Assembly (NCBI GenBank): GCA_021432635.1
Contig: MU270019.1
Coordinates: forward strand, 1,175,672-1,239,671
Source of the DNA: Thozetella sp. PMI_491
Taxonomy: Eukaryota; Ascomycota; Sordariomycetes; Chaetosphaeriales; Chaetosphaeriaceae
Length of the DNA stretch: 64,000 nt
Direction of reading: 5' to 3'
The position numbers and the translations under genes are program-made. The number at the start of each line of letters is the position of its first letter. Position 1 is the stretch's first letter. Below the pieces are notes generated by a model that had not been told where the DNA came from, did no database searches, and saw nothing but the letters and a program-made list of their open reading frames with translations. Below are positions 2,382 to 60,404 of this stretch, in pieces.

Positions 2382-3317
2382 TCAATAGTGGGTGGTAGGG
2401 TGAGCTGCAGCCTTCGTGTGGGTAGGTACAACCTGCCGAGAAGGGAGAGTAGTTGGCCCTTTGTGAGGTTCAGTATGGGGTTTCTTGTGATGCTCAGTTT
2501 TGTGCTCCGTGGCAGGAGTACCCCTGGCTGCAAGAGCTGCCACGGTCGCATGATGCTCCTTGTGCGTGCCAGTCTTGGTCTTGTGATGTTTGGCGTGGGA
2601 CTTTGTGTGATGCTTAGTATGCTCTGGAGCCGAAGTATGTTTGGCATCGAGAGCCCTCTTGGTCCGATGATGGCCCTCGCCACTACCGGTATGCGGCTCC
2701 CCGTGGTGATCGGCGTGGGACTTGGTCTGATACCCGGTATGGGACTTGGTGTGGTGCTCGGTATGGTTCTTGTGATGTCCAGGATTCCCAGGGGCCGGAG
2801 TAGGCCTGATATCGTGAGCTGTCTCGGTCAAATGATGGCCCCCGTGAGTAGCTGTATGCGTCTCCCCGTGGTGCTCGGCGTGGGACTCAGTGTGATGCTC
2901 GGTATGGTTCTTGTGATGTCCGGGATGCTCTGGAGCCGGAGTATGTCTCGCCGCAACAACATTCTTAGTCGTATGATGTTTTTCAGGGGCCTTAGTGTGC
3001 GACTTCTTGCCCGTACCGTGAGCCTTAGTGGGCGAGGTTTGATGTACCTGAGCGGTTGCCGGCTTGGTTGGTTTGCCTTTTTGTTCAATCTCCTCAACGA
3101 GACCAGCGGCAACATCACGTTTCTGGACAGCAGCTTCGGCTTTCGCAATGGCAGCCTCGGGAATCTCGAGGCCCCGTAGCTGCAGTCGGGTACGGCCACA
3201 GGTAACAGCTGCGTCGGTGAATGGAGAGGATGCAATGAAGGCGCAGAACACAACGAAGCAGGCGTATGCCAGCCACGGGTGTCCGGGCAATAATCGGGCC
3301 ATTTTGGTGACGGGCAA
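2382..3317 (-). CDS. Secreted histidine/threonine/lysine-rich repeat protein, unknown function
   Basis: This is an intronless 311-residue reading frame. It opens with an N-terminal signal peptide: a basic start, then a hydrophobic core LAYACFVVFCAFIA, with probable cleavage just before AVTCG near residue 36. Met6 is an equally good start. After a short Ala/Glu/Lys-rich segment (residues 40-85) the chain becomes a set of about four degenerate repeats of roughly 40-50 residues, built from HxxHH and KSHxxHH motifs separated by a PAPEHPGHHKNH-like block. I count about 50 histidines. Dibasic sites (KR near residue 217, and others) could be cut by a Kex2-type protease. No enzyme domain or known family is recognised. 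The composition suggests metal binding or a cell-wall or secreted role, but that is inference. The nearest neighbours are the NLR-like relic and a CaaX monooxygenase. Confidence 0.6.
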   Translation of the reverse strand: MPVTKMARLLPGHPWLAYACFVVFCAFIASSPFTDAAVTCGRTRLQLRGLEIPEAAIAKAEAAVQKRDVAAGLVEEIEQKGKPTKPATAQVHQTSPTKAHGTGKKSHTKAPEKHHTTKNVVAARHTPAPEHPGHHKNHTEHHTESHAEHHGETHTATHGGHHLTETAHDIRPTPAPGNPGHHKNHTEHHTKSHTGYQTKSHADHHGEPHTGSGEGHHRTKRALDAKHTSAPEHTKHHTKSHAKHHKTKTGTHKEHHATVAALAARGTPATEHKTEHHKKPHTEPHKGPTTLPSRQVVPTHTKAAAHPTTHY

Positions 3318-4942
3318 ATAAGAAGAAACAATTTTCTAAGTAGAGGAGCTTGTCGGACTACAAACTCGCGTTTCTACGATCTAGTTCTTGGCAGACAAAT
3401 GAGACGGGAGCAGCCTGGTCTATTATACGCTACAGATGTGCCTCCAATATGAAGGCATGTGAAGGTCTTGGCAGGAGGATTGAGAGAGCAGCCCTCGTTC
3501 GCGTTCCTATCCATTCGAAAGCCGCTGAGGTATCTAGTCCTCAGAGACACTTGAGTGCCAGAGCTAGGGGTTGGAATGCGTTCGTTGAGAATCGCCCTCC
3601 CCGAGTTCCCTCTTCTTCGCCTCTCTTGTCTCAATCAAACGGAGCCATCAGATCATTCAAGGGTCCTGTCTCACATAGGTAAAGAAGCGAACCGCTGAGC
3701 ACAGCTGAGCATGCGCGGCAACAGACAGAGACATGGTCGTGCCCAACTACTTGCTCCAGCCAACTCGCGAGACAAAATCCAGTTGCTGGAATCTACAACA
3801 GCCAGTCTGTTACGACATAAAACTACTCTCCCTCTATATCTTCTGGCTCTTTGGGCTTCTAGACCTCAAGGCCGCGTCACCTCAGCATGTGTGGCTTGTC
3901 TTGACGATCAGCCAGCGATGTTCCCCTCCGGGGCATGTCCCCTAGGCTCGTTGCTCAACATTTCCTCAGAATTCTGCGGTATCTTTCTTCCCCTCGAGGT
4001 CATCTCAACGCAGCAATGTTTGGAGGTTCCTATTACGGCTGTATGTGCTGGTGCGCGGAGGCGGAAGTATCCTGAAGCGGACGTCTACTCTGGCCGGCAG
4101 CGGGGTTGGTATCTTTCCGCACGGATGATGTGCGCGTAGAGCTTCCTTACGAGTTATTTCCTGCTAAGGAGGCGACTTAGGTATACTAGCTATCTCCTTG
4201 GCCTCCTCTATGGAACGTGCAACCCGCTGCGATAACAAGTCCCGGCCATGTCCGAGAACGTGGGAGCGGATGTACTGCCGAGAAACTTCATTTTCGGGCA
4301 ACGAGCTCGGCATAACTAACGCGGTTCAGGTGATCACAAATGCGCGGCTCGATTTGGTAAAGTGGTTCGAAACAAGATCCTCATGATACACAGCCATGCT
4401 TGGGCAGCAATAGACTGTTCCTCGCGGCTCAATCGCGTATCCACATCGCTTGGGGGATTATACGGCACACAGGTGCGGCAGTCACTTTTCTCAGTCGCTA
4501 TACGGTTTGTGGCAGGTTGATGTCGTGGCATCGAGCATACGGCCGGATGCGGCATTCCAATCGGACGATGGCGTGCTGGCGACATCCCGATTTGCTCCTT
4601 GGCTGATATTAATGGATATACGCAGGATATTAACCTGCTCTAAGAGGATCTGCCATGGTGGTGTTTAGTGGCCACGTATGGGGAGAGATGTTCATGCCGT
4701 GCTGTCACGGGGACAGGCTGCCAAATTTACCCGGCCAACTCGATCGACAGCCAGGCAGAAGAATATACATTGCCGGGAGCATCAAGGCATCCACTTTCAT
4801 CTAGGCAAGCCTATGTGTCGGCGGTATCAATCGGCAAGGGCTGCCTAGAGGGCTTCTAGAACCCCGACACAGGGGCAGGGCCTCCTGTAGTACCGCGTCA
4901 TCAATTCAAGTCTAGGCAGCCAAGCTTTTCAGCACTACGAAC
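3318..4942. other. Non-coding interval, no supported gene
   Basis: This 1.6 kb interval lies between the upstream end of the His-rich gene and the start of the monooxygenase, so it should hold both promoters (divergent arrangement). Short open frames occur on both strands, but none shows a recognisable domain, signal peptide or splice pattern. Confidence 0.6.
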
Positions 4943-6292
4943 ATGTCGCCGATGCACTGCCTTGTCGTCGGGGGAGGCATAGGCGGGCCAGTGGCCGCCA
5001 TCGCCCTTGCGAAGAACGGGCACAAGGTCACTCTCTTGGAATGCTCAGAGACGAAGCAAGGCGTCGGGTATGCCTTCCGGCTCACCCCGAACTCTGACCG
5101 CATTCTCAAGCGCCTAGGCATCGATGCCGAGGCAGGAGGCGCTGTGGCTGCGAACGTGGTGCGCAAGTTCGACGCGCAGGGAAACCCACAGAACGAGGTC
5201 AGGGAGAACCAAAATGCACAGCAAGCAAGGCAGGCCAAGTCGGTCTTCGCAACCCGGCACCAGCTAGGCGCACAGCTGATGGACCTGGCAGTCCAGAGCG
5301 GAGTGGAAGCCAGGCTGGGCAATGCAGTCGTGCGTGTTGATCTCGAGAGCACGTCTGCAGAGCTCGACGATGGCACAAGAGTCTCAGCCGATGTGATCAT
5401 TGCGGCGGATGGCGTCAAGTCCGTAGTTCGCTCAGAGATCGCTGACCCTGCAACACACTTCCCGCACAGCTCGACGGGCCACAATGCATTTCGCTTCATG
5501 CTCGACAAGGACGACGTCCTGAAGGACGGCGTTACAGCCTCGGCCTTCCAGCAGGAGCCCCGGATGTTCATGTGGACGGGCGACAGCAAGTTAATCCTTG
5601 CCTACCCAGCGGACTACGACAGGCAGCTCAATGTCGTTTGTACGCACCCAGAGACGCTTTCGGACCAGGCTACTACGGATGCAGACGGCGCCGGCTACCA
5701 AGGCTACGACAGGAAGGTCTCTAGGGAGGTGGCCCTGGATATCTACCGGGAGTTCGACCCGATCGCCCGGCGACTAGTCGAATTGGCAGACCCAGACGGG
5801 TTACGGATTTGGAAGCTCAGGGACATGGACGAGATCCCGTCGTGGTCCAAGAACTGCACGGCGCTGATCGGGGATGCCTGCCACCCCGTGCTTCCCTTCA
5901 GCTTCTCGGGAGCCTCGATGGCCATAGAGGACGCCATCACCGTCGCCACGCTCCTACCCGCCGGCACCGAGCTAGCCGACATCCCCGGCCGCCTAGCCCT
6001 ATATGAAGAGATACGCAGGCCACGCGTCGCTAGGGTCCGGCAGGCCGGCAGGGACATCGCCTATGGTACGCAGGGACCTGAGTATCTCGCGACCTACATG
6101 CGATTTCTCGTAACTCACGATGCGGCTCAAACGGCTCAGGAGGCGCTAGAAGGCTATCTCCTAAAGTCGAACCGCAACGTAGCAGGCAACACAGAGACGT
6201 CCGAGGGTTCGCAGGACACAGGCAGCAAGGGTGGATCTGACAGGGGTGCAAAAGCGCCGGGGAGATCGAGGAGCTGCTGCGTAGTGCTATAG
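4943..6292 (+). CDS. FAD-dependent monooxygenase (PHBH/UbiH fold) with C-terminal CaaX motif
   Basis: This single-exon gene encodes 449 residues and belongs to the FAD-binding-3 family of aromatic-ring and related hydroxylases. The N-terminal Rossmann dinucleotide site is VVGGGIGG (residues 8-15). The DG motif is IIAADGVKSVVRSEI (152-166). The GD motif that contacts FAD ribityl is LIGDACHP (309-316), followed by a helix with MAIEDA. The substrate cannot be told from sequence. Two Met codons (1 and 4) lie just ahead of the Rossmann strand, and the first is chosen. After the catalytic domain comes a low-complexity, basic tail (about 415-445) ending in Cys-Cys-Val-Val-Leu. CVVL fits a CaaX box for geranylgeranyltransferase I, which is not usual for this enzyme class. 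It predicts a membrane-anchored enzyme. No pathway partners lie next to it. Confidence 0.92.
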   Translation: MSPMHCLVVGGGIGGPVAAIALAKNGHKVTLLECSETKQGVGYAFRLTPNSDRILKRLGIDAEAGGAVAANVVRKFDAQGNPQNEVRENQNAQQARQAKSVFATRHQLGAQLMDLAVQSGVEARLGNAVVRVDLESTSAELDDGTRVSADVIIAADGVKSVVRSEIADPATHFPHSSTGHNAFRFMLDKDDVLKDGVTASAFQQEPRMFMWTGDSKLILAYPADYDRQLNVVCTHPETLSDQATTDADGAGYQGYDRKVSREVALDIYREFDPIARRLVELADPDGLRIWKLRDMDEIPSWSKNCTALIGDACHPVLPFSFSGASMAIEDAITVATLLPAGTELADIPGRLALYEEIRRPRVARVRQAGRDIAYGTQGPEYLATYMRFLVTHDAAQTAQEALEGYLLKSNRNVAGNTETSEGSQDTGSKGGSDRGAKAPGRSRSCCVVL

Positions 6293-7759
6293 GCAGGCTG
6301 TGGGGGGGGCTCAAATGTCGTGGCGCCAGGGATCCTCGTTTATTGTCTATGTACTTTTTGCTTACCCAACTGTTAAAAAGTTCTCGGGTAAGCTCGCGTT
6401 TACAGCCCCGATTTGAATAAACGTACGAAGGTGCCAATCTTGGCCTAGGTTACGAGGTAGCGTGGTACTCGCCGCGCCGCTGCCTCGCCGATAGACAAAC
6501 ACCCCCTCCCCCCTCCCCGCCGCAGCCGCTCTTGGCCCCCGTAACCCCTTTGGTACACGAAAGGCTCATCGGGTATAACCCATGGAAGCCAACTAGAGGA
6601 CGAGCATCGCTGAGGAAAGTGCTCGTTAGATGGAGTGGGTTACCATCCTGGCCACCCAAGCCACCCATGATCGGCTACTACTACGTACAGTATCGACATA
6701 GGATGTAGGTCGGCCGCCTGTAACGGTGATATAGTGCGTCGGGTTCCATTTACGGCTAGCTAGCTGGGATATGCAGCGAATACTCCTTCATGCGAGCGGG
6801 ACATAAATCCCTTTCAGTGAAACGTAGCGGAGCGATCGGTAGCCCAGGGGGGACGGGGGACGGGGGGAGGGGCCCTTGTCTGGTAGGGATCCCTGCGCCC
6901 GTGTCATAATGTTGCACAAACTGGGAATGCAATGACCCTGGCGGGCCCCAACGGAAATCTACCATATTAGTAGTCAACAAGTGCACACCACCGCGCGTGG
7001 GTACATAGACGACACTGGGGTTAGTCATAGCGGCGGAGCCTGTCCATCAAACACGGCTCATTGCCGGAGGTGCTCCTTTAGCGCTACAAACCAACGTATC
7101 GAGCAAAGCGCCGAGGCCGAGCGAGATGGATAGGCGAGCGCAGCAGCCTGCCATGCGCCTTCGGGGTTAGTTAAGAAGCGTCTATACCGTGAACACATGG
7201 GTCCGGTAGGCGTTAGGGAAAGTAATCCTGCAGGAGCGTTATATCTCAGCAGCCTGGAACCCCAGGCCGTAACGAAGGCAATTGCGGACGTTAGACGGCC
7301 CAAAGAGGAAGCGTATGTCTCTACGGCTAGTCTCGCTCATCTCTGTTAGCCCCATTCCCTCTCATGGGATCCTAAGTGGCTTTACCTGCCAGTGGACGCC
7401 AAGTCCGACCCTGCCGGTCCACCCTTCCTCTACAGAGCCAATTACCACGTCACCTTACTATTACGGGCGGGTATACTCTCGGTTATGGGCATTTTAGAGA
7501 GAGCTCCAGAGGGCTGTCACGTATAAAGTCCCCACGATGTCAAGGCTCGGCCGCTCCGCAGTGGAATTGCGCACCCCTCCCCTTCCCCGACCCGCCATCA
7601 TGTTCCACTGCGCTGGGCGGTGGTGCTTGCAAGCGCTAATGAGACTCCCTATATGCATTCGCTAGTCTGCTTGATCCCTGGCGTACATGCTGCTCCCATG
7701 CAAGAGCGCCCGCTGTGCTGCCGGGGGGGCACTTATGTCTTGCACTTGACCAACTGGGC
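6293..7759. other. Non-coding interval, no supported gene
   Basis: About 1.5 kb separates the convergent 3' ends of the monooxygenase and the hydroxyacid dehydrogenase. It contains G- and C-rich homopolymer stretches (for example near 6495-6520 and 6850-6875). The short frames present have low-complexity, unlikely products. Confidence 0.6.
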
Positions 7760-9029
7760 TTAGCCTCCCCTTCCAAAAGTCCTGTGAAGCTCATTCAGGA
7801 GTGGTCTCCCTTGCGCCAGGCGCTCCAGATTGGCCTCCATCAGGCTTAAGTTCCTCTGTAAAAAGTTGGTCGTCTGCCACGCTGTGTGCGGTGTGACGAG
7901 TAGGTTCGGGGCTTTCCACAGAGGATGGTCCTGCGGCAGGGGCTCCGGGTCCGTCACGTCTAGAGCGGCGCCTCGGATTTGTCCCTTCTCCAGCGCTGCG
8001 ATCAACGCGGCGGTGTCGACGATCTTGCCGCGGGCAATGTTGCACAGGAACGTTCGCTTCTTGCTCAGGATCTCAAACTGCTTGGACGAGATGAGGCCCG
8101 CAGTGAGGTCGGTGAGCGGCATGGACAGCACCAGGATGTCGAGGTCTTGCGCGAGGAACTCATCGATCGACTCCCGCCCCCCGTGGAACCAACGCGACGG
8201 CAGCAGTCCGTCCGGGTCGCCAGTGCCCTCGAGGCGGAAGCTGTGGTCCTTCCGGGCCTCGGGCGTCGCCTTCTCGCTGTGGGTGTAGGCATAGACCTCC
8301 ATGTTTAATGCCTTGGCCATCCGCGCCACCTCACGCCCGATGGCGCCGTAACCCAAAATGCCCCTGTACCTTCGTTAGTTTCAGGACAGCACAAACGAGG
8401 GTGCCTATGAGAGGACATGGCGTACATTCGGCGCCTATACGAGTCCGTGACATCGATCTTGTCATGAGTATACCAATGGCTCTGTTTGGCGTAGTCATGG
8501 TACCGGAAGAAGCGGTGCTCACTCGCGAGCCAGGACCCGATCACCCACTCCGCGATCTGTGGCCTGCGGCAGGCTCGTTAGCCGGGCTCCTTCCTCCAGC
8601 CCTCGCATTGCCAGGATGCAGGATGGCCTCGCTCGGCAGAACTCACGTATTGTTGCCGCGACCGTTACAGAACACTACATTGGGGTCATGGTAGGTGGCA
8701 TGGTTGATCCATGGGTCGACGCCAGAGCCGGCCAACTGCACGAACTTGACGTCCTCGAGCAGATGGGCCGGTGGCGCGTACCACCAGATGCAGGCGTGAG
8801 TCACACCCTTCCACAGGTCGCCGTATACTTCGGCCTCCACGGGCGCCCCGTCGAGGTAGGCTTTCGCCCAACGCACCTCTATCCCAGGATACCGGGCCTC
8901 TATCTTGGCGATCCAATCTTGGTCAGGGTCTTCGGCGAAGTAGACGATCACCTTTGCGTCGCTTAGCCGGCCGCTGATGCTGCCATCAGCCGAAGCGGTG
9001 GCAACGGCTGTCGTCTCTGTGGACCCCAT
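7760..9029 (-). CDS. D-isomer-specific 2-hydroxyacid dehydrogenase (NAD-dependent)
   Basis: Gene model: complement of exons 8647-9029, 8426-8563 and 7760-8363, giving 374 residues. Intron 8564-8646 has donor GTGAGT, branch CTAAC and acceptor CAG. Intron 8364-8425 has donor GTACGC, branch CTAAC and acceptor CAG. Splicing keeps frame and reconstructs the family. The nucleotide-binding motif is GYGAIG (residues 178-183). The catalytic triad is Arg285 in NIARGKIVD, Glu314 in DVTDPEPLP and His333 in VTPHTAW. These enzymes reduce 2-keto acids to D-2-hydroxy acids or run the reverse reaction, and the exact substrate (glyoxylate, hydroxypyruvate, mandelate-type) is not decidable here. No targeting signal is obvious, so it is probably cytosolic. 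It stands alone, with its promoter facing the 9.0-11.9 kb gap. Confidence 0.93.
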
Positions 9030-11869
9030 AGTTGTATATCGTAGCTAGCTCGCCGCTGGAAGGTTACTCTGAAATCCCGCGTGGGGAGGGCGAGAGCAAA
9101 CACTGAGCACAAAGCCGAAGGAGGGAACAGGGGGCACACCTGGGATCTCTAGCGGCTTGTCGACGTGCTCCTACGAACGACATAGAGAGCAAAGCCCGGC
9201 CTGATCACTATTGTTAACCTCGGCCGACCGCGGTATCGGCGAGCTAAGAGGCAATGCACCCCCCCACTCCGGCATCTCTCTAGTGGATTATCGCGCCCCG
9301 CGGCCATGGCGAACTTCGGTGTGTTTACTAAGGGCATACGCCCTGAGGCAGATGACAGCCAGCCGCTTACCAACACGCCCGATGGCCCTAGTCTCTGCGC
9401 CTGGCGTGAGCAGCCGCCCAAACTTAGCAACTTGAGGTGCCAACAACCGTCATGTTACCAACTGTTAATTATATCGTACTGTTATGCACCAGGACCGCTG
9501 TGGTCTGGTTGGTTGGTGCAAGCCCACTTGTCCCGTTATCGCTATCGCTATCGTCCGGGGCTCCCCCCCCTCGAAACTTTGGGCAGATCTTGGAATAGAC
9601 GAGGCGCACAGTTTGTATGGCTGCTATAGGTGCATTCTCCTGTTGGTTGAGGCGTCAAAATAACCATGGCTCCTCCGAGCATATGTACCCGGCGCCGCAG
9701 TATGTGACAGTCCGGGCGCTGTACAAGGCAGGCATCCACGATGCCTACTGCTACAGTAAGGCTATGCATTTTTGAATTCCCAAGGGATGGGATGCCCTTA
9801 CGAAGTAATAGCCGATTGCAGCGGCACGGTGGGGCACCAAGGGGGGCAAGACAAGCGAGCGGACGAATCCCGACGGCCGCTGACCGAAGCTAGGGAGAGA
9901 GTCTCGGGGTTTGCTCTCGACTATGTAACAAGCATGCGGCTCAACATTAGCAGCAATACCACCAGGGCAGGCCTGCGTGGGGGCCGGGCGTGAATCGAGC
10001 CAATTTTGAGTTCCAGCACTTAGTCACGGCGGAGAAGCATTCTCTGCAGGGAACATTAGCTGCCAGGATCAATTATAGCTGGGCAAGCTGGGGTCGGGGC
10101 TCTGCGGCCGCCACCATCTCGCAAGCGGCAAGGCTTTGCGTTGCATCTAGATCTATTGGGCCGAGACTAGCTATGTCCAGGCCATGCCAGCGAGGTATGC
10201 CAGTGCTGAGACGAGCTTGAGGGTCCAAGGGAGGCGGAGCGAGAGCTTCAGAATCAGAATTGATACAGATACCAACGAACATTATAGCGTGCGCTGAACA
10301 GAACAGGAGACGCGCAATAGGCGGAGCCCGTAGTTCTCTTTGGCGCCTTCTACGTGGATCGTCGCATATCCTCGTGTCTTCATGTCCTCCCCCAGTTTTG
10401 TGCCGTCCGTCGTGTTCACCTCTAGTTGAGTGGCGGTAGGCTCGGCGGCGGCCCAAAAGTAATAACAATAAAAAGCTAGGCCTGGTGGCTCTTTTGACGA
10501 CCTAGGCTGCAAGAGTGAATAAATCCTGCCCCGAATCATCTGCCTCTTTAGGCGACTTTGCCTCGTTGGAGCGTGGGGCCAAAAAAGACCATAGGGAACG
10601 GCGTCATTGCCGGCGCCATACTTCATACGACTGGGACCTAGGCGAGCCAGCGGCCGCCCCCCCTGGACGAAAAGGAGCAAAGAAAGGAGCAGACGGGACC
10701 GAGATCGTATCGATCGGCGTGGGAAGGTGGTGGGCCACCCCCCCCCCCCCCCTAAACTCTCGGCAGGCGTTGTTGCAATGCTGCTAGGCCTGCTTCACCT
10801 CTGCACCGGGAATCAACATGAAGCCGTCCACGTCGACGATGTTGAAACATGCCCGCTGCAGCCGGCTTCAATGGGCGCCCCGCGTGCGACAAGGCGGGAG
10901 GAGGCTTCCGTTCTTGAATGAACACGGCGGCCAGATCCCCCCAGCGATCGCCCGCTAGGCCCGAAAGCGTCGAGAGAGGAGACGATGCACAGGCCACGGC
11001 AGCCGCCGGGCCAATAGACGAGCGCGATTCCATATTAGGCTAAGCCCATGAGACGCCGTGATGCCTCACCGTCCAATCAGCCGGCGGCCATCCCCGTGCT
11101 TTCTCGTAAAGAAATCTTGGAAGGCGCGCGAGCTTGGTGTGGGAAAAAAACAGGCGGCCCCCCTGGTTGGTGCAGCACGCAGCCCCGGGCCCCGCCCGCC
11201 CTGACCCTTCTTCCGCCCTTCTTGTCTCTCTCTAGCCCCGACTCTCCTCTTTTCCACGGCAACGCACCTCACGTCACGACCCAACACCGGAGCAACCGCC
11301 TGGGCTTGACGTCGCGACAAGGCAGGGCCGCCGTTCCGACACTCGTTGATACACTATTCCCACTTTCGCTTTTTTCTAAACAATCCCGCCCCCCACACCA
11401 CTTACCTCAATTCCGATCGTTCACTATACTATTCTCCTTCCTGGAACGGCACGATCGTCGAATAGTCCATCGCTTTTCCCGCTTCAACTGCCGGGCACAC
11501 ACACACACCCATCACTACTACCTACCTAGGTGTATGACTTAATACGAGACATTCCCAACCCTCCAGCATTCCAGTCCCGTACCCGTGTCCAAGGCCTGAG
11601 ACCCTCGCTACCCGGCCCCCCGGCTTCGTATTGGAACGTCATCCTCTTGCCCCTTTTCGCTCAACGACCTCCCTCGCCTATCTGTCTTCGTCTTCGGCCC
11701 CCCGAGCGAGTGCCGGCTGAAAAGGACCGCGAGCCTCAACGTCGTCGGGCCCTTCCAACGACGCACGAGAACCTCGTCCTCGACCATCACCCCTCCCTAG
11801 TCCGCCGTCGCCGTCGCTGTCGCCGTCGCCGTCGATCCGAGAGGCCCGCTACCCAACTCGCCAGCAACG
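9030..11869. other. Non-coding interval between divergent dehydrogenase and chs7 genes
   Basis: The 2.8 kb spacer should hold the promoters of both flanking genes. Its right third (about 11190-11860) is strongly pyrimidine-rich, as expected for a fungal promoter and 5' leader of chs7. It includes a CA repeat near 11497-11510. A run of 15 C lies at 10738-10752. I see no domain-bearing frame. Confidence 0.6.
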
Positions 11870-16890: not shown

Positions 16891-18362
16891 GGCTGCGCGA
16901 CGCTGCGCTTCGATTCGACTGACTGGGCTGCGCTGTTTGGGCCAATTTCCCCTATCCGATTTACCTAATTGGATCTTATCTTGGCCGACTGGGCATAAAG
17001 GTCGCCTAGTCATCATCCCACCCCCTCCTTGCGCTCACGCCCCCCTTCCAAGGCCTCCCGGACGGACTAGTAAGCCAGCCCCCCGGACCCATATAGCAAT
17101 GCACAAGGACTCTGCATCCATACCCTCCTGACCTCATACCCGGCGCCTCGCTCGCACACTGCCCCCGGAACTGTCGAGCGACAGACGACTGCTTTCCCTA
17201 TTTTGCGAGGCCGCGCACTATTGCGCTATTACTATACGCCCGCTACTACGCCCGCTGCCTATCTTATTTGGGGTCTGACTAGTCCCTCAGTCGGCTTTGG
17301 TCCTCACCCAGTCCAGTCCACGTTTCTGACTTTTGGCCGAATTTAATTATTTCATCATCCCGGTTCCCTTTCTTCCCTTCCACTTTCCTCTTTTCCTCTT
17401 TCTTCCCTCTCCCTCTTCGCTCCCTTCCCCCTTCCTAGGACCGACAACCAACTCGCGCTAGTCTTCTTGGCTAGTATTCTCTCCTGCCTTGTCCGACGAC
17501 TTACCGCCGACGAGCCTACCCAACAAAAACTAATTAGTACCAGTCTCCGTCTCTCTCTCTGGCGCTCTCTCCCTTTGGCCTCTCCACCTTTGCAGCGGTT
17601 GGTCGACCAAACATTCCATCACAGCTACTCTACTAGGTACAGTCCCTTTCGCTCTCCTCCCCCCTGTCGGCCCCCCTTCCCGCCCAAGCCTCCGCCTGGG
17701 TGCGATTTGCAGCCGCACATCCCTACCCTGTGTTGGATCTTTTTTCCCATCCGACAGCCGAAAATAATCCCATCCACTGCGACGCTTCGGGAAAGCGACT
17801 ATTTTGGCTCGCATAACATGCCCGCGCCAACCAACAGCTTTCCACTTTTTGCATTTTGGCCTGCAGCCAACTCCGGTCGCTGACCTGTCCAGATGTGCTC
17901 ATAATTAAAAAACAAAAGTCGCGGGCAAATCCCCTCTTCGCTTTTGCCGCCTTCTCAGCTCTCTTTCACACACTCCGGAGGTTCTTTCGGCACCACCCTG
18001 GAATGCAGCCATCCCCGACTCGCACGCTGCACTCCCTTCATCGCAACGGAGCCTCGGTTTCCGCTTCATCCGACATCTCGGTCCAAGCTCGTTTTGCCCT
18101 TGGCTCACGGGCCATTGCGGACCACTAGACCACCCTCTAGATTACTATTACCACCCTTTTGAGTCAGGTAAATAGGCGCTAAGCCTCCCGCTTCGCCAGC
18201 TCATCACCTCTTCCTCACTCATCCCGAGCCGGCCCCAACCCAACCTACGCAAACTCGTAGCAGGTTGAGGCCACCTATCCGGCTCACAAACACATCTTCA
18301 CCCAAACACCGTTTGTTTTACGTGAGCGCCTGTCTCGTCGGTGCAGCGAGACGCCTAGCCCC

Positions 18363-21055
18363 ATGGCGCCCACCAACCTAGAAAGCATAGTGCAGACCGT
18401 GAGCCGCTACGGCCCTGAGTCCATCGAGAGGCTACGTCCCGAGGTATGGGACGAGATCGAGGCCAAGTACTGGGCCTCCAGCTCCGCAGTCCGCAGCCAG
18501 GAGGACCGGGAGCTGGAGGACGGCTACCGCAAGCGGCATGCCGAGGTGACGGCCCGCATCTACGAGATCGCTGCAGAGCACGCGCGCCTGAAGGCGCAGA
18601 TGATGGCCGCCGAGGATGAATGGCGCGCACTGGACGACGAGCTCAAGGTGATGGACCAGAAATTCAAGGCCGAGCGGGCCAGCCGCGCCTCACATCGCGC
18701 CCACGAGGACGACCAGAAGCGCCAGTGGTTCGAGGGCCACAAGCGCAGCAGCGAGGCCTACCCGCCCGTGCGTAGGATTCACCGCATGGACGACGAGGAG
18801 ACGGTCGTCGACGACGACGTCAACGGGGTCGACAGCATGGAGGCGTACCGAGCGAAGCAGCAGGCTCACCGGCCTGGCCCGCTTGCGCGGCCGCTCAAGG
18901 AGTCGCCCAAGATGGACAGCCGCGGCATCAGCATGGGCATCCCGCCCATCCATGCCGCGACCAACGGCATTCTCCAGAATGGCCACAGCTTACTCAACGG
19001 ACACGCAGCCCGCGCCGCTGAGGTGACGGCAGCCCACCGCGGAGCAAGCCCGAGGTCTCGGGACAGCACCGAACGCGCCGCCCCTTCGCCCGTATCGATC
19101 CAGGAAATTATTCGCCACGACCCCCCGCCACAGATTGCGGAGTCGGTCGAGAGGTCACAGGACCAGGCGGCCCTGGCGGCAGCCGCCGCTGCTGGGGGCG
19201 GTTTCACAGCTGTGAACATCAGCGCTGCACCCAGCCGCCGCCAGACCCCAGAGGAGACGCCACGGTCCATCGGCCGGGGCCCGCGCGGCCGCAAGTCGCT
19301 CCCCGACAGCCGGGGCTCAGCTCATGACGCTTCAATGCTCTCGACGCCGGGCGGCAGCCCCACGCAGGACGCGAACGCGACCGAGGAGGAGATAGACCCG
19401 CCAGCAGAGATCAGCAAGTCGATGCTTGACCTGCTGGACGACGGGACTGTCTTCACTGCACCCGCCACTATGGTCGGTGTCCCCCTCGCCAAGATCTCGC
19501 CTGATCACCCGTATTGGGACCCGGAGTGGCGGCCGATCGAGGACAGCATCCGGCCCGCGCTTGAGAAGTGGCAGTCGAAGCACGAGGAGCATCTCGCCAA
19601 GGGTTCGACCAACTCTAGCAAATTCCTGGCGAATCGGCAGATCAACCGCGGCAATGCCATCCTAAAGTTCCTACAGGAGGGCGATCTGCACCCCTACCAG
19701 ATCTTTGGCAAACAGTTCATCAACAGCAACGTGCGCAACTTTGTGAACTACGACACCCTGTTCCGCATGGTCCAGGTGCTGGAGGAGCTGCCCAAGTTTG
19801 GCATCGACTGCAGCCCCAGCGAATGGCTCCGCCAGCGTCTGCACGAGGTCTACACCGAGTCCCCCGAGACTTTCAACCTGGCCAAGACGATCCACGAGCT
19901 GTATCACGACGAGAAGGTTATGTACCTCCGGTCCAAGAGCGGCTTCGGAAACATCGGTCGCCCTTCGGGCTACAAGATGGGCGACAAGCCCTCTGAGGGC
20001 CGCCGCGTGGTGTCGCAGGGTCGCAAGCGCAAGGCCGAAGGTACTCCCAAGGGAACTCCCCGCGGGACGCCTCGGGGCACCCCCAAGCCGGGCCCGCTGC
20101 AGGAGGGCGAGCACATCATGTCGCCCATCCCAGGCCACGCCCCCATCCTGCCTCGGCCGGACTCGTCCTCATCGCACCGTAAGATCCAGCCGCACCCCGG
20201 CCCGCATCTGCAGCCGGCGCCCGCCCCCCAGGACAGCTACACCAGCAGCCCGGCCTTCCGCCAGCTGCAGGCGCAGGCCCAGCAGGCCCAGCAAGCACGG
20301 GAGTACGAGGAGACCAAGACAAGCATCGGCAGCAACGCCTCGATCCCGTCGCAGTCCCCGCGTGAGCCCAAGAAGCAGCGGCTCTCGCCCACGCCGCTAA
20401 CCCCCGGCGAGCCCAGCCCGACCATGCGGATCGAGGACGACCTCGACTACGACGGCTATACGTCAACCGACAGCTACAGTAACGACACGGTGCTCCCGGT
20501 GGACTGGCGCGTGCACCAGGTCAAGGTGGCCAACATGGCCACCAACACGCAGGTGACGCAGTACTGGCACTGGCTCGACCAGAATGGTTCCCGCCAGGGC
20601 ACCGAGAGCAACATGTTTGAGCACCAGGTGCTCAAGGATGTGCCGCCCAAGAAGGTCAGCTGGGGCGTCTACAAGGAGCCCTTCGACTTCCACCTGCGCC
20701 TTTCGGAGCTGGTGCAGGTCGAGTACTCACCCGAGAGCCTGCGGGTCGTCATGGCCACCAAGCCTGTCGAGGGCGTGCCGCACCGCGGCAACGTGCTTGC
20801 GCAGTTCAAGCGCGAGCGCACCAAGCGCCGCTTCCTGCGCTTCATGAAGGGCAAGGGAGTCAAGCTCATCCGGGTCCCACAGTAAGTCTACGCTGATACA
20901 ACCCCCTGGAGGAGGAAAAACGGATTTGCTAACCCACCCCGTGCAGACACATGGTGGACTCGGCCTGGGCAAGCATGGACCCCCCGACCCTCCCCATCTA
21001 CGACGGGGAGGAGGGAGGCCAGGGCGGTCGCGCGCTGAACGGCCCCCCAGCTTAA
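18363..21055 (+). CDS. Uncharacterised conserved-looking protein, probably nuclear (875 aa)
   Basis: Gene model: exons 18363-20881 and 20947-21055. The 65-nt intron has donor GTAAGT, branch CTAAC and acceptor GCAG, and it removes an apparent stop and adds 35 residues. I do not recognise the family. Residues about 45-130 are charged and heptad-like, suggesting a coiled coil. A long low-complexity middle (about 170-350) follows. Residues about 375-555 look folded, with ordered motifs such as LHPYQIFGKQFINSNVRNFVNYDTL split over a helix-rich stretch. Near 552-575 lies a basic segment with GRKRK followed by GTPKGTPRGTPRGTPK, which resembles a nuclear localisation or DNA-contacting tail. A second ordered block (about 712-845) is rich in aromatic residues (WRVHQVKV, YWHWLDQNG) and ends in a basic stretch, KRERTKRRFLRFMKGKG. 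A chromatin or transcription role is inference only. The ATG at 18363 follows a long pyrimidine-rich leader. Confidence 0.85.
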
Positions 21056-57655: not shown

Positions 57656-59395
57656 TCATGCCCCTGTTTCACCATTATCATCTTCCGGGGACGGTTCATC
57701 TTCAAGAGATCGTGACGCCTCCATCTGTTGGTCTTCCGGGGACTCCTCTTCTTCCTCTTCAGGAGATGATGTCTCCATCTGCTCGCCCTCCAGAGGCTGC
57801 CCGTTTTCGCCTTCGGGAGGCGACGACGCCTCCATCTGCTCGTCTTCCGGGGACTGCTCGCTTCCATCTTCAGGATTTGACGTCTCCGTCTGCTCCGGCT
57901 GCGGATGCTGCTCATTTCCACCTTCAGGAGACGACGTCTCCATCTGCTCGCCTTCTGGGGACTGCTCCTCTTCGTCTTCATCTTCATCTTCAGGAGATGA
58001 CGTCTCCATCTGATCGTTCTGCGCAGGCTGCTCGTTTTGACCTTTAGAAGACGTCTCCATCTGCTCGCCTTCCGGAGATTGCTCGTCTTCGTCTTCATCC
58101 TCATCTTCGTCTTCGTCTTCGTCTTTGTCTTTAGGAGATGTCGACGTCTGCGTTTGCTCCTGTGCCGCAGGCGACGACGCCTCCGTCGGCTCCTCCTCTG
58201 CCGCGAGACTAGCCCTGCTCGATTCAGGGGTGCGATTTGCCTTCCAGCGGATGCCGGACTGGTCCTGCTCTCCATACTCGACGATGTTGTGCTCAGCGTC
58301 GAGCTTGACGATGTACCACGGGCCAGGCACGCCGCCCTTGACCGCCTCCGCCTTCTCTATGGCCGCGGCCTCTGTCTCAAATAGGCATGTGGTTATGTCG
58401 AACGAGCTCTTGGCAAGTCGGCCTTGGTGCTCGTACCAGAAATGCCAGTCTTCCTCAGCAGCGGCACACTCCTCCTCGGCCGTTTTAGCTATCTGGATAG
58501 CCTGGCTCAGATCCGGAAGAGTCACGGGTACATTGTTTGTATGGAGGTTCTGCTTCCGGTGGATATACTCTCCCTCCAGTCTGGTTAGCTCATCCAGCAG
58601 AGGCGCGAGGGGTCCCAACATGCCCGCCGCTTCCATTTCGGCCCACCCTTGAGACCTGCCTCCCTCGAGTAGCTCGGTAAAGACTTGGCTGGTATTCTCG
58701 ATATCCCAGATGGGAACTTGAAAGGGAGACGCGAACACGGCTTGCTCGAGAACCTTTGTCTCTCCGAAATCGCCTACGTAGAAGTCTGGAAGGGCTTTCT
58801 CGTCGCTGCTATCCCCCCAATGGAGAAAGACGTTACGGGTGAGCATGTCGCCGTGGATTAAGGGTTGGTTGTCCTGGTAGTGGTACAGGTACTGGAGCGT
58901 CTGGAGCACATGGTGCATGCATCGTGCGATGAGAATGTATGGCACGCCGATGGGCATTCTCCCGTTGTTTACCCCACTATAGCTTTCAGCGAACTCGGCG
59001 GCGTCTCCGCCATTGCAAAGTTCGAAGTAGGCGGTGCCTTCGTTCTTGCGCTCTTCGTCGAACTGCTGCCCCGGCCGCCACGGTGCCAGGTCGTTGTGGC
59101 CGCATGCGCGCGCGATCCTCGGCTCTAGGCCTTGAGCCCGGGCGCGGCCGAGCCTGTGTGCATCGTGCAGCCTTCGATCTACGTCTGCTTCCTTCTCGAG
59201 ACCCGGAATGTCTTCGAGATTACGCGCGCTCTTACGCACTCGGGGCACTTGGTCTTCTACGGACCACACCAGCTGTGTCTTTGCGTGAGTGCCGGATCCC
59301 AATCTACTTGCAAAGAGATATCTCTTCTCATGGCCCTTCTCACCTTGGTAGAAGCATACGGCATAGCTGTGCTTGTCGGGTGACGGGGACTCCAT
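57656..59395 (-). CDS. Protein-kinase-like protein with acidic repeat tail
   Basis: This intronless gene encodes 579 residues. Residues about 28-250 follow a protein-kinase layout: RLGSGTHAKTQLVW (31-44) in place of the glycine loop; a possible ATP lysine at Lys55 in RVRKSA; a catalytic loop LIHGDMLTRNVF (179-190); and DFG at 209-211. The loop has HGD instead of HRD but keeps the catalytic Asp183 and Asn188, so activity is possible. Residues 280-385 form a second, apparently folded region with no recognised family (WHFWYEHQGRL, WYIVKLDAEHNIVEYGEQD). From about 400 the protein is very acidic: a run of alternating Asp/Glu (424-438), then seven imperfect copies of EQMETSSPE at about 444, 461, 483, 501, 519, 538 and 557. 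Substrate and role are unknown. Its start faces the xylanase gene. Confidence 0.85.
   Translation of the reverse strand: MESPSPDKHSYAVCFYQGEKGHEKRYLFASRLGSGTHAKTQLVWSVEDQVPRVRKSARNLEDIPGLEKEADVDRRLHDAHRLGRARAQGLEPRIARACGHNDLAPWRPGQQFDEERKNEGTAYFELCNGGDAAEFAESYSGVNNGRMPIGVPYILIARCMHHVLQTLQYLYHYQDNQPLIHGDMLTRNVFLHWGDSSDEKALPDFYVGDFGETKVLEQAVFASPFQVPIWDIENTSQVFTELLEGGRSQGWAEMEAAGMLGPLAPLLDELTRLEGEYIHRKQNLHTNNVPVTLPDLSQAIQIAKTAEEECAAAEEDWHFWYEHQGRLAKSSFDITTCLFETEAAAIEKAEAVKGGVPGPWYIVKLDAEHNIVEYGEQDQSGIRWKANRTPESSRASLAAEEEPTEASSPAAQEQTQTSTSPKDKDEDEDEDEDEDEDEQSPEGEQMETSSKGQNEQPAQNDQMETSSPEDEDEDEEEQSPEGEQMETSSPEGGNEQHPQPEQTETSNPEDGSEQSPEDEQMEASSPPEGENGQPLEGEQMETSSPEEEEEESPEDQQMEASRSLEDEPSPEDDNGETGA
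57690..58130 (-). repeat. Coding minisatellite in the kinase-like gene
   Basis: DNA encoding the EQMETSSPE-type repeats and the Asp/Glu run. The plus strand shows a recurring GACGTCTCCATCTGCTCG-like unit about every 50-65 bp, with shorter CTTCGT/CTTCAT hexamers. Repeat number could vary between strains. Confidence 0.8.
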
Positions 59396-60404
59396 GGCAA
59401 TAATATAGCGCCTGCTAGTGCAGAGAGACGGCTGTTCTATAGCTGCAGATCTGAATGTGTAAGGGTGAACGGGCTGATGAGGTTTATTATTCGAGCCACA
59501 TGTAGGCTGCGCGACTTCACTTATATACTAGTGCTTCCATATTCGGCAATGAAGCGTTATTTGGGCTATAGACAAAGGGATTGTGCAAAAGTAGCCTGTC
59601 TAGAAAGGGCTGTGGAAGGTTTGGTGTTCGCTGCTCCAACGACCTACCTTTATCGTCTTTGTTCACCTGCCGCCCAACGTCTTTCTCCCAGATCGCGGCC
59701 CTGGCTTCGATGTCCCGAAGGTCGTCCCCGGCGTACTGGACCCCGCCAACCAGCCCGGTGTCCCGGTTAAAGGGCTCGGAAAGTGTGTTCGTAGTACATA
59801 GTATACCCCACCCTCTTATATTGATCTGCCGAACCTGCCGTCTAATCTGGCATCCACTTAGCAACCAGGGGGTTGTTTCAGGACGATCCCGGGCGATCAA
59901 CCCCCCTGTGCCATGTGGCTATGCACCACCAACCCAGAGGAACCATTTTCCTGGACGACGGGTCCCAGGGGCGCCAAAGGAGGCGAATGACCTCTACCTG
60001 ACGCATGAAGGCCGACGGCGTGAGCCAATTTGGTGGACCAAGGCGTGGTGGGAGATGGCGCTCGTCCGACCGAGAAGCCTTCCCATCCCATCCCTGGCCC
60101 CTCTGGCGCCTGCATTGGCCTTTGCCGCCTGGCATGACCAGGGGCAAGCCTCCATCCTGGTGGTGGACGTAATTCCTCCTCACGGAGAATCAATGCGTTT
60201 TGCGACGACGAGCATCGACCGATGTGTGGAGCCCAACGGCGCTGAATGGAGAGCCCAGGGGTCGACAGACAAATATGAAGCATATAACTTTATCGTCGCC
60301 CTCTTCGCATTGCCCGTGTGGGCACCGCGCGCCGTGCATTTCCAACTCTGTTCTCTTGTCCAGCTCTTTTCATTCGTTTCTCTCTTGGCAACTTCGCCCA
60401 CAAG
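59396..60404. promoter_or_regulatory. Divergent intergenic region of kinase-like and xylanase genes
   Basis: 1.0 kb shared upstream region. On the xylanase side a CCAAT box lies at 60025-60029 and a TATA-like CATATAA at 60281-60287, about 118 bp ahead of the xylanase ATG. GGCW-type motifs that xylanase activators of the XlnR/Xyr1 family can bind occur at 59564-59570 and 59917-59922, but at a density expected by chance. The assignment rests on position and generic core motifs only. Confidence 0.4.

Follow-up and report, generated by a model that had tools for sequence, protein, structure and literature searches.

In the fungus Thozetella sp. PMI_491, a class A flavin monooxygenase is encoded in a frame whose hydrophilic C-terminal extension ends in Cys-Cys-Val-Val-Leu. 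If the gene is expressed, the hydroxylase would, by a modest balance of probability, be geranylgeranylated and membrane-bound through this extension. The tail and its CaaX-type end are real and a function for them is plausible; that a prenylated membrane form has been selected is unproven. All coordinates refer to the window, that is, the whole stretch of 64,000 nucleotides that was analysed, and the features of the gene are as follows.

4943..6292, plus strand: uninterrupted open reading frame of a FAD-dependent class A monooxygenase, 449 amino acids (PF01494 match, PDB relatives)
4964..4987, plus strand: FAD-binding GxGxxG segment VVGGGIGG, residues 8-15 (alignment A1, four bacterial relatives)
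5402..5422, plus strand: DG motif AADGVKS, residues 154-160 (alignment A1)
5870..5887, plus strand: GD motif GDACHP, residues 310-315 (alignment A1)
6077..6178, plus strand: residues 379-412 with FLVTHDAAQ (His392-Asp393); the boundary at 412 is the author's judgement
6179..6277, plus strand: hydrophilic Ser/Gly/Arg/Lys-rich tail, residues 413-445 (sequence, charge and motif positions)
6278..6289, plus strand: CVVL CaaX-type end, residues 446-449, followed by TAG at 6290-6292

Identification of the monooxygenase

The frame, 449 codons long, runs unbroken between its ATG and the TAG stop, and residues 6-366 of its product match PF01494 (FAD_binding_3) with an E-value of 3.7e-21 and a score of 76.2 bits, which passes the curated cut-off of 22 and bears out the sequence-only reading of a clear FAD-binding-3 monooxygenase. 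A total of 49 distinct PDB sequences were matched, with E-values of 8.8e-39 to 2.1e-37 for the relatives 8r2t, 8x38 and 8gsm, and the labels among these relatives include vanillate 1-hydroxylase, 4-hydroxybenzoate decarboxylase, salicylate hydroxylase and others. No NCBIfam cut-off was reached among the 25 of 67 matches listed (best 167.4 bits versus 459), and since the scores for equivalogs such as 3-hydroxybenzoate 6-monooxygenase and salicylate 1-monooxygenase fall below cut-off there, no named reaction can be assigned to the monooxygenase.

Alignment A1, comprising the query and four bacterial relatives, was used to locate the conserved segments. G10, G12 and G15 of the GxGxxG segment were invariant, as were A155, D156, G157 and S160 of the AADGVKS segment and G310, D311, A312 and H314 of the GDACHP segment; the last two segments are the "DG motif" and the "GD motif", respectively. 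All three segments were found, as is characteristic of class A flavoprotein monooxygenases. Judged from its sequence, the gene product is a soluble-type class A flavin monooxygenase and, by family, a hydroxylase. The search of bacterial and archaeal genomes returned relatives at four prokaryote loci (28-31% identity) and that of viral contigs returned none, both collections being uninformative on a eukaryotic CaaX box.

The C-terminal extension

The C-terminus of the monooxygenase reads ...GSKGGSDRGAKAPGRSRSCCVVL, then stop, and over a longer stretch ...SKGGSDRGAKAPGRSRSCCVVL-stop. As had been noted from the sequence, the stop codon stands directly behind Cys-Cys-Val-Val-Leu, the final residues of the frame being GAKAPGRSRSC-CVVL-stop with a second cysteine (Cys445, codon 6275-6277) immediately before CVVL. 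The linker of 11 residues, GAKAPGRSRSC, contains three Lys/Arg and none of V/I/L/M/F/Y/W (0/11), and the net charge over the last 40 residues is +2, so that the "basic Ser/Gly-rich linker" of the sequence-only reading holds as to its basic character, only mildly so. Upstream of the tail, the query retains a THDA-type segment (LVTHDA, His392-Asp393) similar to the H/Y-D segments that several paralogues have close to their ends; it is separated from the stop by 55 residues.

Codon-position GC was 0.526, 0.658 and 0.632 in the tail, which has 38 codons only, as compared with 0.652, 0.45 and 0.735 in the core, whose pattern is not seen in the tail; the third-position value for these few codons is intermediate, below that of the core and above those of the flanks (0.545 and 0.55).

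Splicing that removes the tail had been named at the outset as a way in which the CaaX end could be lost. This possibility was set back by the finding that no consensus donor GTRNGT lies near the tail, the sole one in the frame being far upstream at 5330; it keeps some ground in four weak donor-like GTNNGN sites at 6035, 6066, 6199 and 6207, found in a scan restricted to sites whose fifth base is G. A branch-like CTGAC lies at 6237 and YAG acceptors occur from 6282 on. A real transcript spliced or ending elsewhere, leaving a mature protein without CVVL, would fit with the introns apparent in several paralogues, and an intron only some 86 bases long, starting at 6199, would take out Cys446. It is nevertheless improbable: none of the four weak sites equals GTRNGT, use of those at 6035 and 6066 would cost the THDA segment too, and the monooxygenase frame is unbroken all the way to the stop. 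The tail is probably present in the mature protein.

Prenylation signals and host machinery

The end of the frame has Cys at -4, aliphatic residues at a1 and a2 and Leu at X, all at the C-terminus itself. GGT1 is described as having a clear preference for Leu at the last position, affinity measurements for both FT and GGT1 include CVVL, and the 11 residues ahead of the CaaX cysteine are expected to be small or flexible, with hydrophilic ones preferred (PMC1175975). GAKAPGRSRSC agrees with this linker rule. The same source gives a GGT1 preference, short of a rule, for Ser or Lys directly before the cysteine and for more Lys at -1 to -7. The query departs from it, with Cys at -1 and a stretch from -1 to -7 that contains two Arg and lacks Lys. 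The false-positive rate quoted there for the GGT1 predictor is 0.02% (PMC1175975).

Prenyltransferase and CaaX-processing families are both matched in the host genome. Prenyltransferase beta-type matches comprise 6 rows at three loci, with FT, GGT-I and GGT-II taken together, and this family was matched in 0/14 prokaryote control genomes; alpha-subunit repeats comprise 7 rows at two loci. The Rce1-like family has one match and the ICMT family four, and because prokaryote controls match these broad families as well (11/14 and 5/14, respectively), they are non-specific and count as weaker evidence. Taken with the sequence rules (PMC1175975), these family matches lend support to the earlier proposal that the end is of the GGTase-I CaaX type.

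Genes of the Ras family served as a control. Sixty matching places were found in the genome and the downstream end was read for 6, of which 4 showed prenylation-type ends (CAC, CVIL, CC and CAC); the frames of the other 2 stopped without one, probably at introns. The CVIL-ending gene (G000:C79:244289) terminates in ...KKGKGPKCVIL, like the tail of the query, or in fuller form ...EKKGKGPKCVIL. With CC or CAC at 3/6 of the ends read, the double cysteine of the monooxygenase could be regarded as a Rab-type end for GGTase-II; the Ras-superfamily genes ending in CC or CAC are here presumed to be Rabs, judged by such ends. This reading is given hardly any credence, as the monooxygenase is not a GTPase (PF01494 domain) and GGTase-II requires its substrate to be complexed with an escort protein (PMC1175975).

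Probability of an accidental CaaL end

The chance of a strict CaaL end was estimated with 400,000 random tails drawn from the protein's own composition or from triplets of the flanking DNA. The frequencies were 0.00015 and 0.000275, respectively (1.5-2.8 in 10,000 per C-terminus), falling to 0.0000125 and 0.0000475 with at least 3 Lys/Arg before the motif (rough values from 5 and 19 events; 1-5 in 100,000) and to 0.0000025 and 0.000015 with Cys at -5 (few events; 0.25-1.5 in 100,000). Among stop-to-stop segments of at least 30 amino acids at the 60 loci described below, spurious and real frames alike, 2/5,128 had a strict CaaL end, 1 of these with at least 3 Lys/Arg and 0 with Cys at -5, corresponding to about 4 in 10,000 for strict CaaL and about 2 in 10,000 with 3 Lys/Arg. 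Within the window the count was 1/1,328 segments, this one being the CVVL finding itself.

From the simulated and frame rates, about 2-8 accidental strict CaaL ends per genome follow if 15,000-20,000 genes are assumed. CVVL is thus improbable by chance for one gene chosen beforehand, and a whole genome holds a few accidental ones. As a few false ends are expected per genome and the finding was chosen for its striking end, the reading of CVVL as an accident, in which a young unconstrained extension (arising for example by loss of an older stop codon) is perhaps prenylatable and has no biological role, retains a sizeable minority of the probability. It draws on the chance rates per C-terminus, on a tail base composition by codon position that is not clearly coding (38 codons) and on the paralogues, among which a CVVL-type end is shared by 0/59 readable ones. 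Against it stand the drop in the simulated rates once the Lys/Arg and second-cysteine conditions are added and the fit of the tail to a working anchor, namely mild basic charge, an 11-residue linker free of hydrophobics and a second Cys.

Paralogues in the same genome

The 72 Mb genome of Thozetella sp. PMI_491 was searched and at least 88 matching places were found. Sixty loci were taken, consisting of 59 other places with a match reaching query residue 338 or beyond and a paralogue on contig C30 matched in pieces, and 28 matches confined to the N-terminal or middle part were left out as separate places. Of these loci 59/60 were readable to a stop, the remaining one (L039) being left out as it had no C-terminal match. 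These loci are paralogues, none of them an orthologue, and their identity to the query across the matched segments is about 21-43%. With frames read to the stop in this genome, Cys at -4 was found in 0/59 readable paralogues; several of their frames probably run into introns, and some true ends are therefore missed. Homologues with the same catalytic domain and unrelated C-termini, which the sequence-only reading had named as the case against it, thus appear in all 59 readable paralogues (no Cys at -4), though the comparison concerns paralogues only.

Since the C-terminal alignment was poor, with only 4 paralogues placed beside the query, motif positions were used instead. The GD pattern was located in 51/59 readable paralogues, and the distance from it to the stop was 140 residues in the query versus a median of 116, with 8/51 paralogues longer than the query, including one (L015) in which the pattern started at a wrong GD-like string. 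A loose H/Y-D motif, which also picks up chance strings, was found in 30/51 paralogues, of which 20 stop 13-33 residues later, 2 sooner and 8 at 40 or more; the tail after this motif was shorter than that of the query in 25/30. The query tail exceeds those of most paralogues, yet other long tails occur in the family. A DNA search of this genome with window 3300-8000, in which simple repeats were skipped, gave no second copy of the region, and the only non-self match was one of 92 bases (window 7905-7996) to contig C26 at 75%.

Of the paralogues, L068 (C30:676000-679500 of the same genome; 1085-150, minus strand) has the smallest summed tblastn E-value. Its monooxygenase is closely followed, on the same strand, by a match to acetoacetate decarboxylase (PF06314, E 1.3e-16), and the arrangement is possibly a monooxygenase-decarboxylase fusion or else two neighbouring genes.

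Other features of the window

A D-2-hydroxyacid dehydrogenase match on the minus strand (7763-9044, with PF02826 at 7763-8374) adjoins the monooxygenase; the frame at 8646-9044, which has no Pfam match, may be the first exon of this dehydrogenase, and the 92-base DNA match falls in the same region. A gene for the chitin synthase chaperone Chs7 is also within the window. Three further frames are without a Pfam match. That at 2385-3317 (minus strand, 311 amino acids) has an N-terminal hydrophobic stretch and a long His/Thr/Lys-rich repeat region and may encode a secreted low-complexity protein; 18261-20882 (plus strand) is a stop-to-stop frame of 874 amino acids; and 57659-59527 (minus strand) is one of 623 amino acids that takes in tandem repeats at 57714-58086, the repeat unit being 54 bases.

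Proposed route to the membrane

Under the slightly favoured reading, that of a geranylgeranylated, membrane-bound hydroxylase, GGTase-I, and possibly FTase too, would attach a prenyl group to Cys446, a Rce1-like protease would cut off VVL and ICMT would methylate the newly exposed C-terminus, and Cys445 may in addition be palmitoylated. The lipid together with the mildly basic linker would hold the enzyme to the cytosolic side of either the plasma membrane or an endomembrane, where it could be brought close to a lipophilic substrate. The wider proposition, that in a fungal lineage a soluble flavin hydroxylase became a membrane enzyme with a prenyl anchor by gaining a short tail, with prenylation controlling the site of hydroxylation, is advanced tentatively and is considered rather unlikely as a whole.

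Comparison with known systems

The group A aromatic hydroxylases (salicylate, 4-hydroxybenzoate and vanillate 1-hydroxylase; 8r2t, 8x38, 8gsm, 5evy) belong by sequence to the same family as the query. Their matches to it span residues 4-370 to 6-382 and include the FAD-binding, DG and GD segments. In none of the 49 PDB rows does the best stretch extend past residue 382, so that the last 67 residues of the query are unmatched. The likeness to GGTase-I substrates (Rho/Ras-like GTPases, CaaL) consists in a flexible hydrophilic linker followed by C-aliphatic-aliphatic-L; the query differs from them in being a metabolic oxidoreductase whose linker has only three Lys/Arg and lacks Lys at -1 to -7.

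The fungal prenylome is described as known so far to a limited extent, with a focus on Ras- and Rho-family proteins (PMC6550545). Among the literature matches listed (titles and abstract starts), no prenylated or CaaX flavin monooxygenase was found, and a flavin-dependent fungal version of a prenyl-anchored monooxygenase is a variant not met in the literature searched. Fungal Tri14, said to hold CAAX motifs (PMC12474229), was not counted as a precedent, a C-terminal position being unstated in the text available.

A precedent is CYP85A2, a P450 of brassinosteroid synthesis in Arabidopsis, which is prenylated and in its motif-less form fails to complement the mutant, its prenylation motif not being conserved across all orthologues (PMC6866125). 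If true, a prenylated flavin hydroxylase would likewise tie the place of metabolic oxidation to protein prenylation, and a simple screen of fungal flavin monooxygenases for CaaX ends conserved among orthologues would suggest itself. CYP85A2 is a heme P450 and a substrate of the plant farnesyltransferase, whereas the query is a fungal flavin enzyme; both are monooxygenases with a C-terminal prenylation motif, and given this precedent lineage-specific prenyl anchoring of a monooxygenase is of an already known kind.
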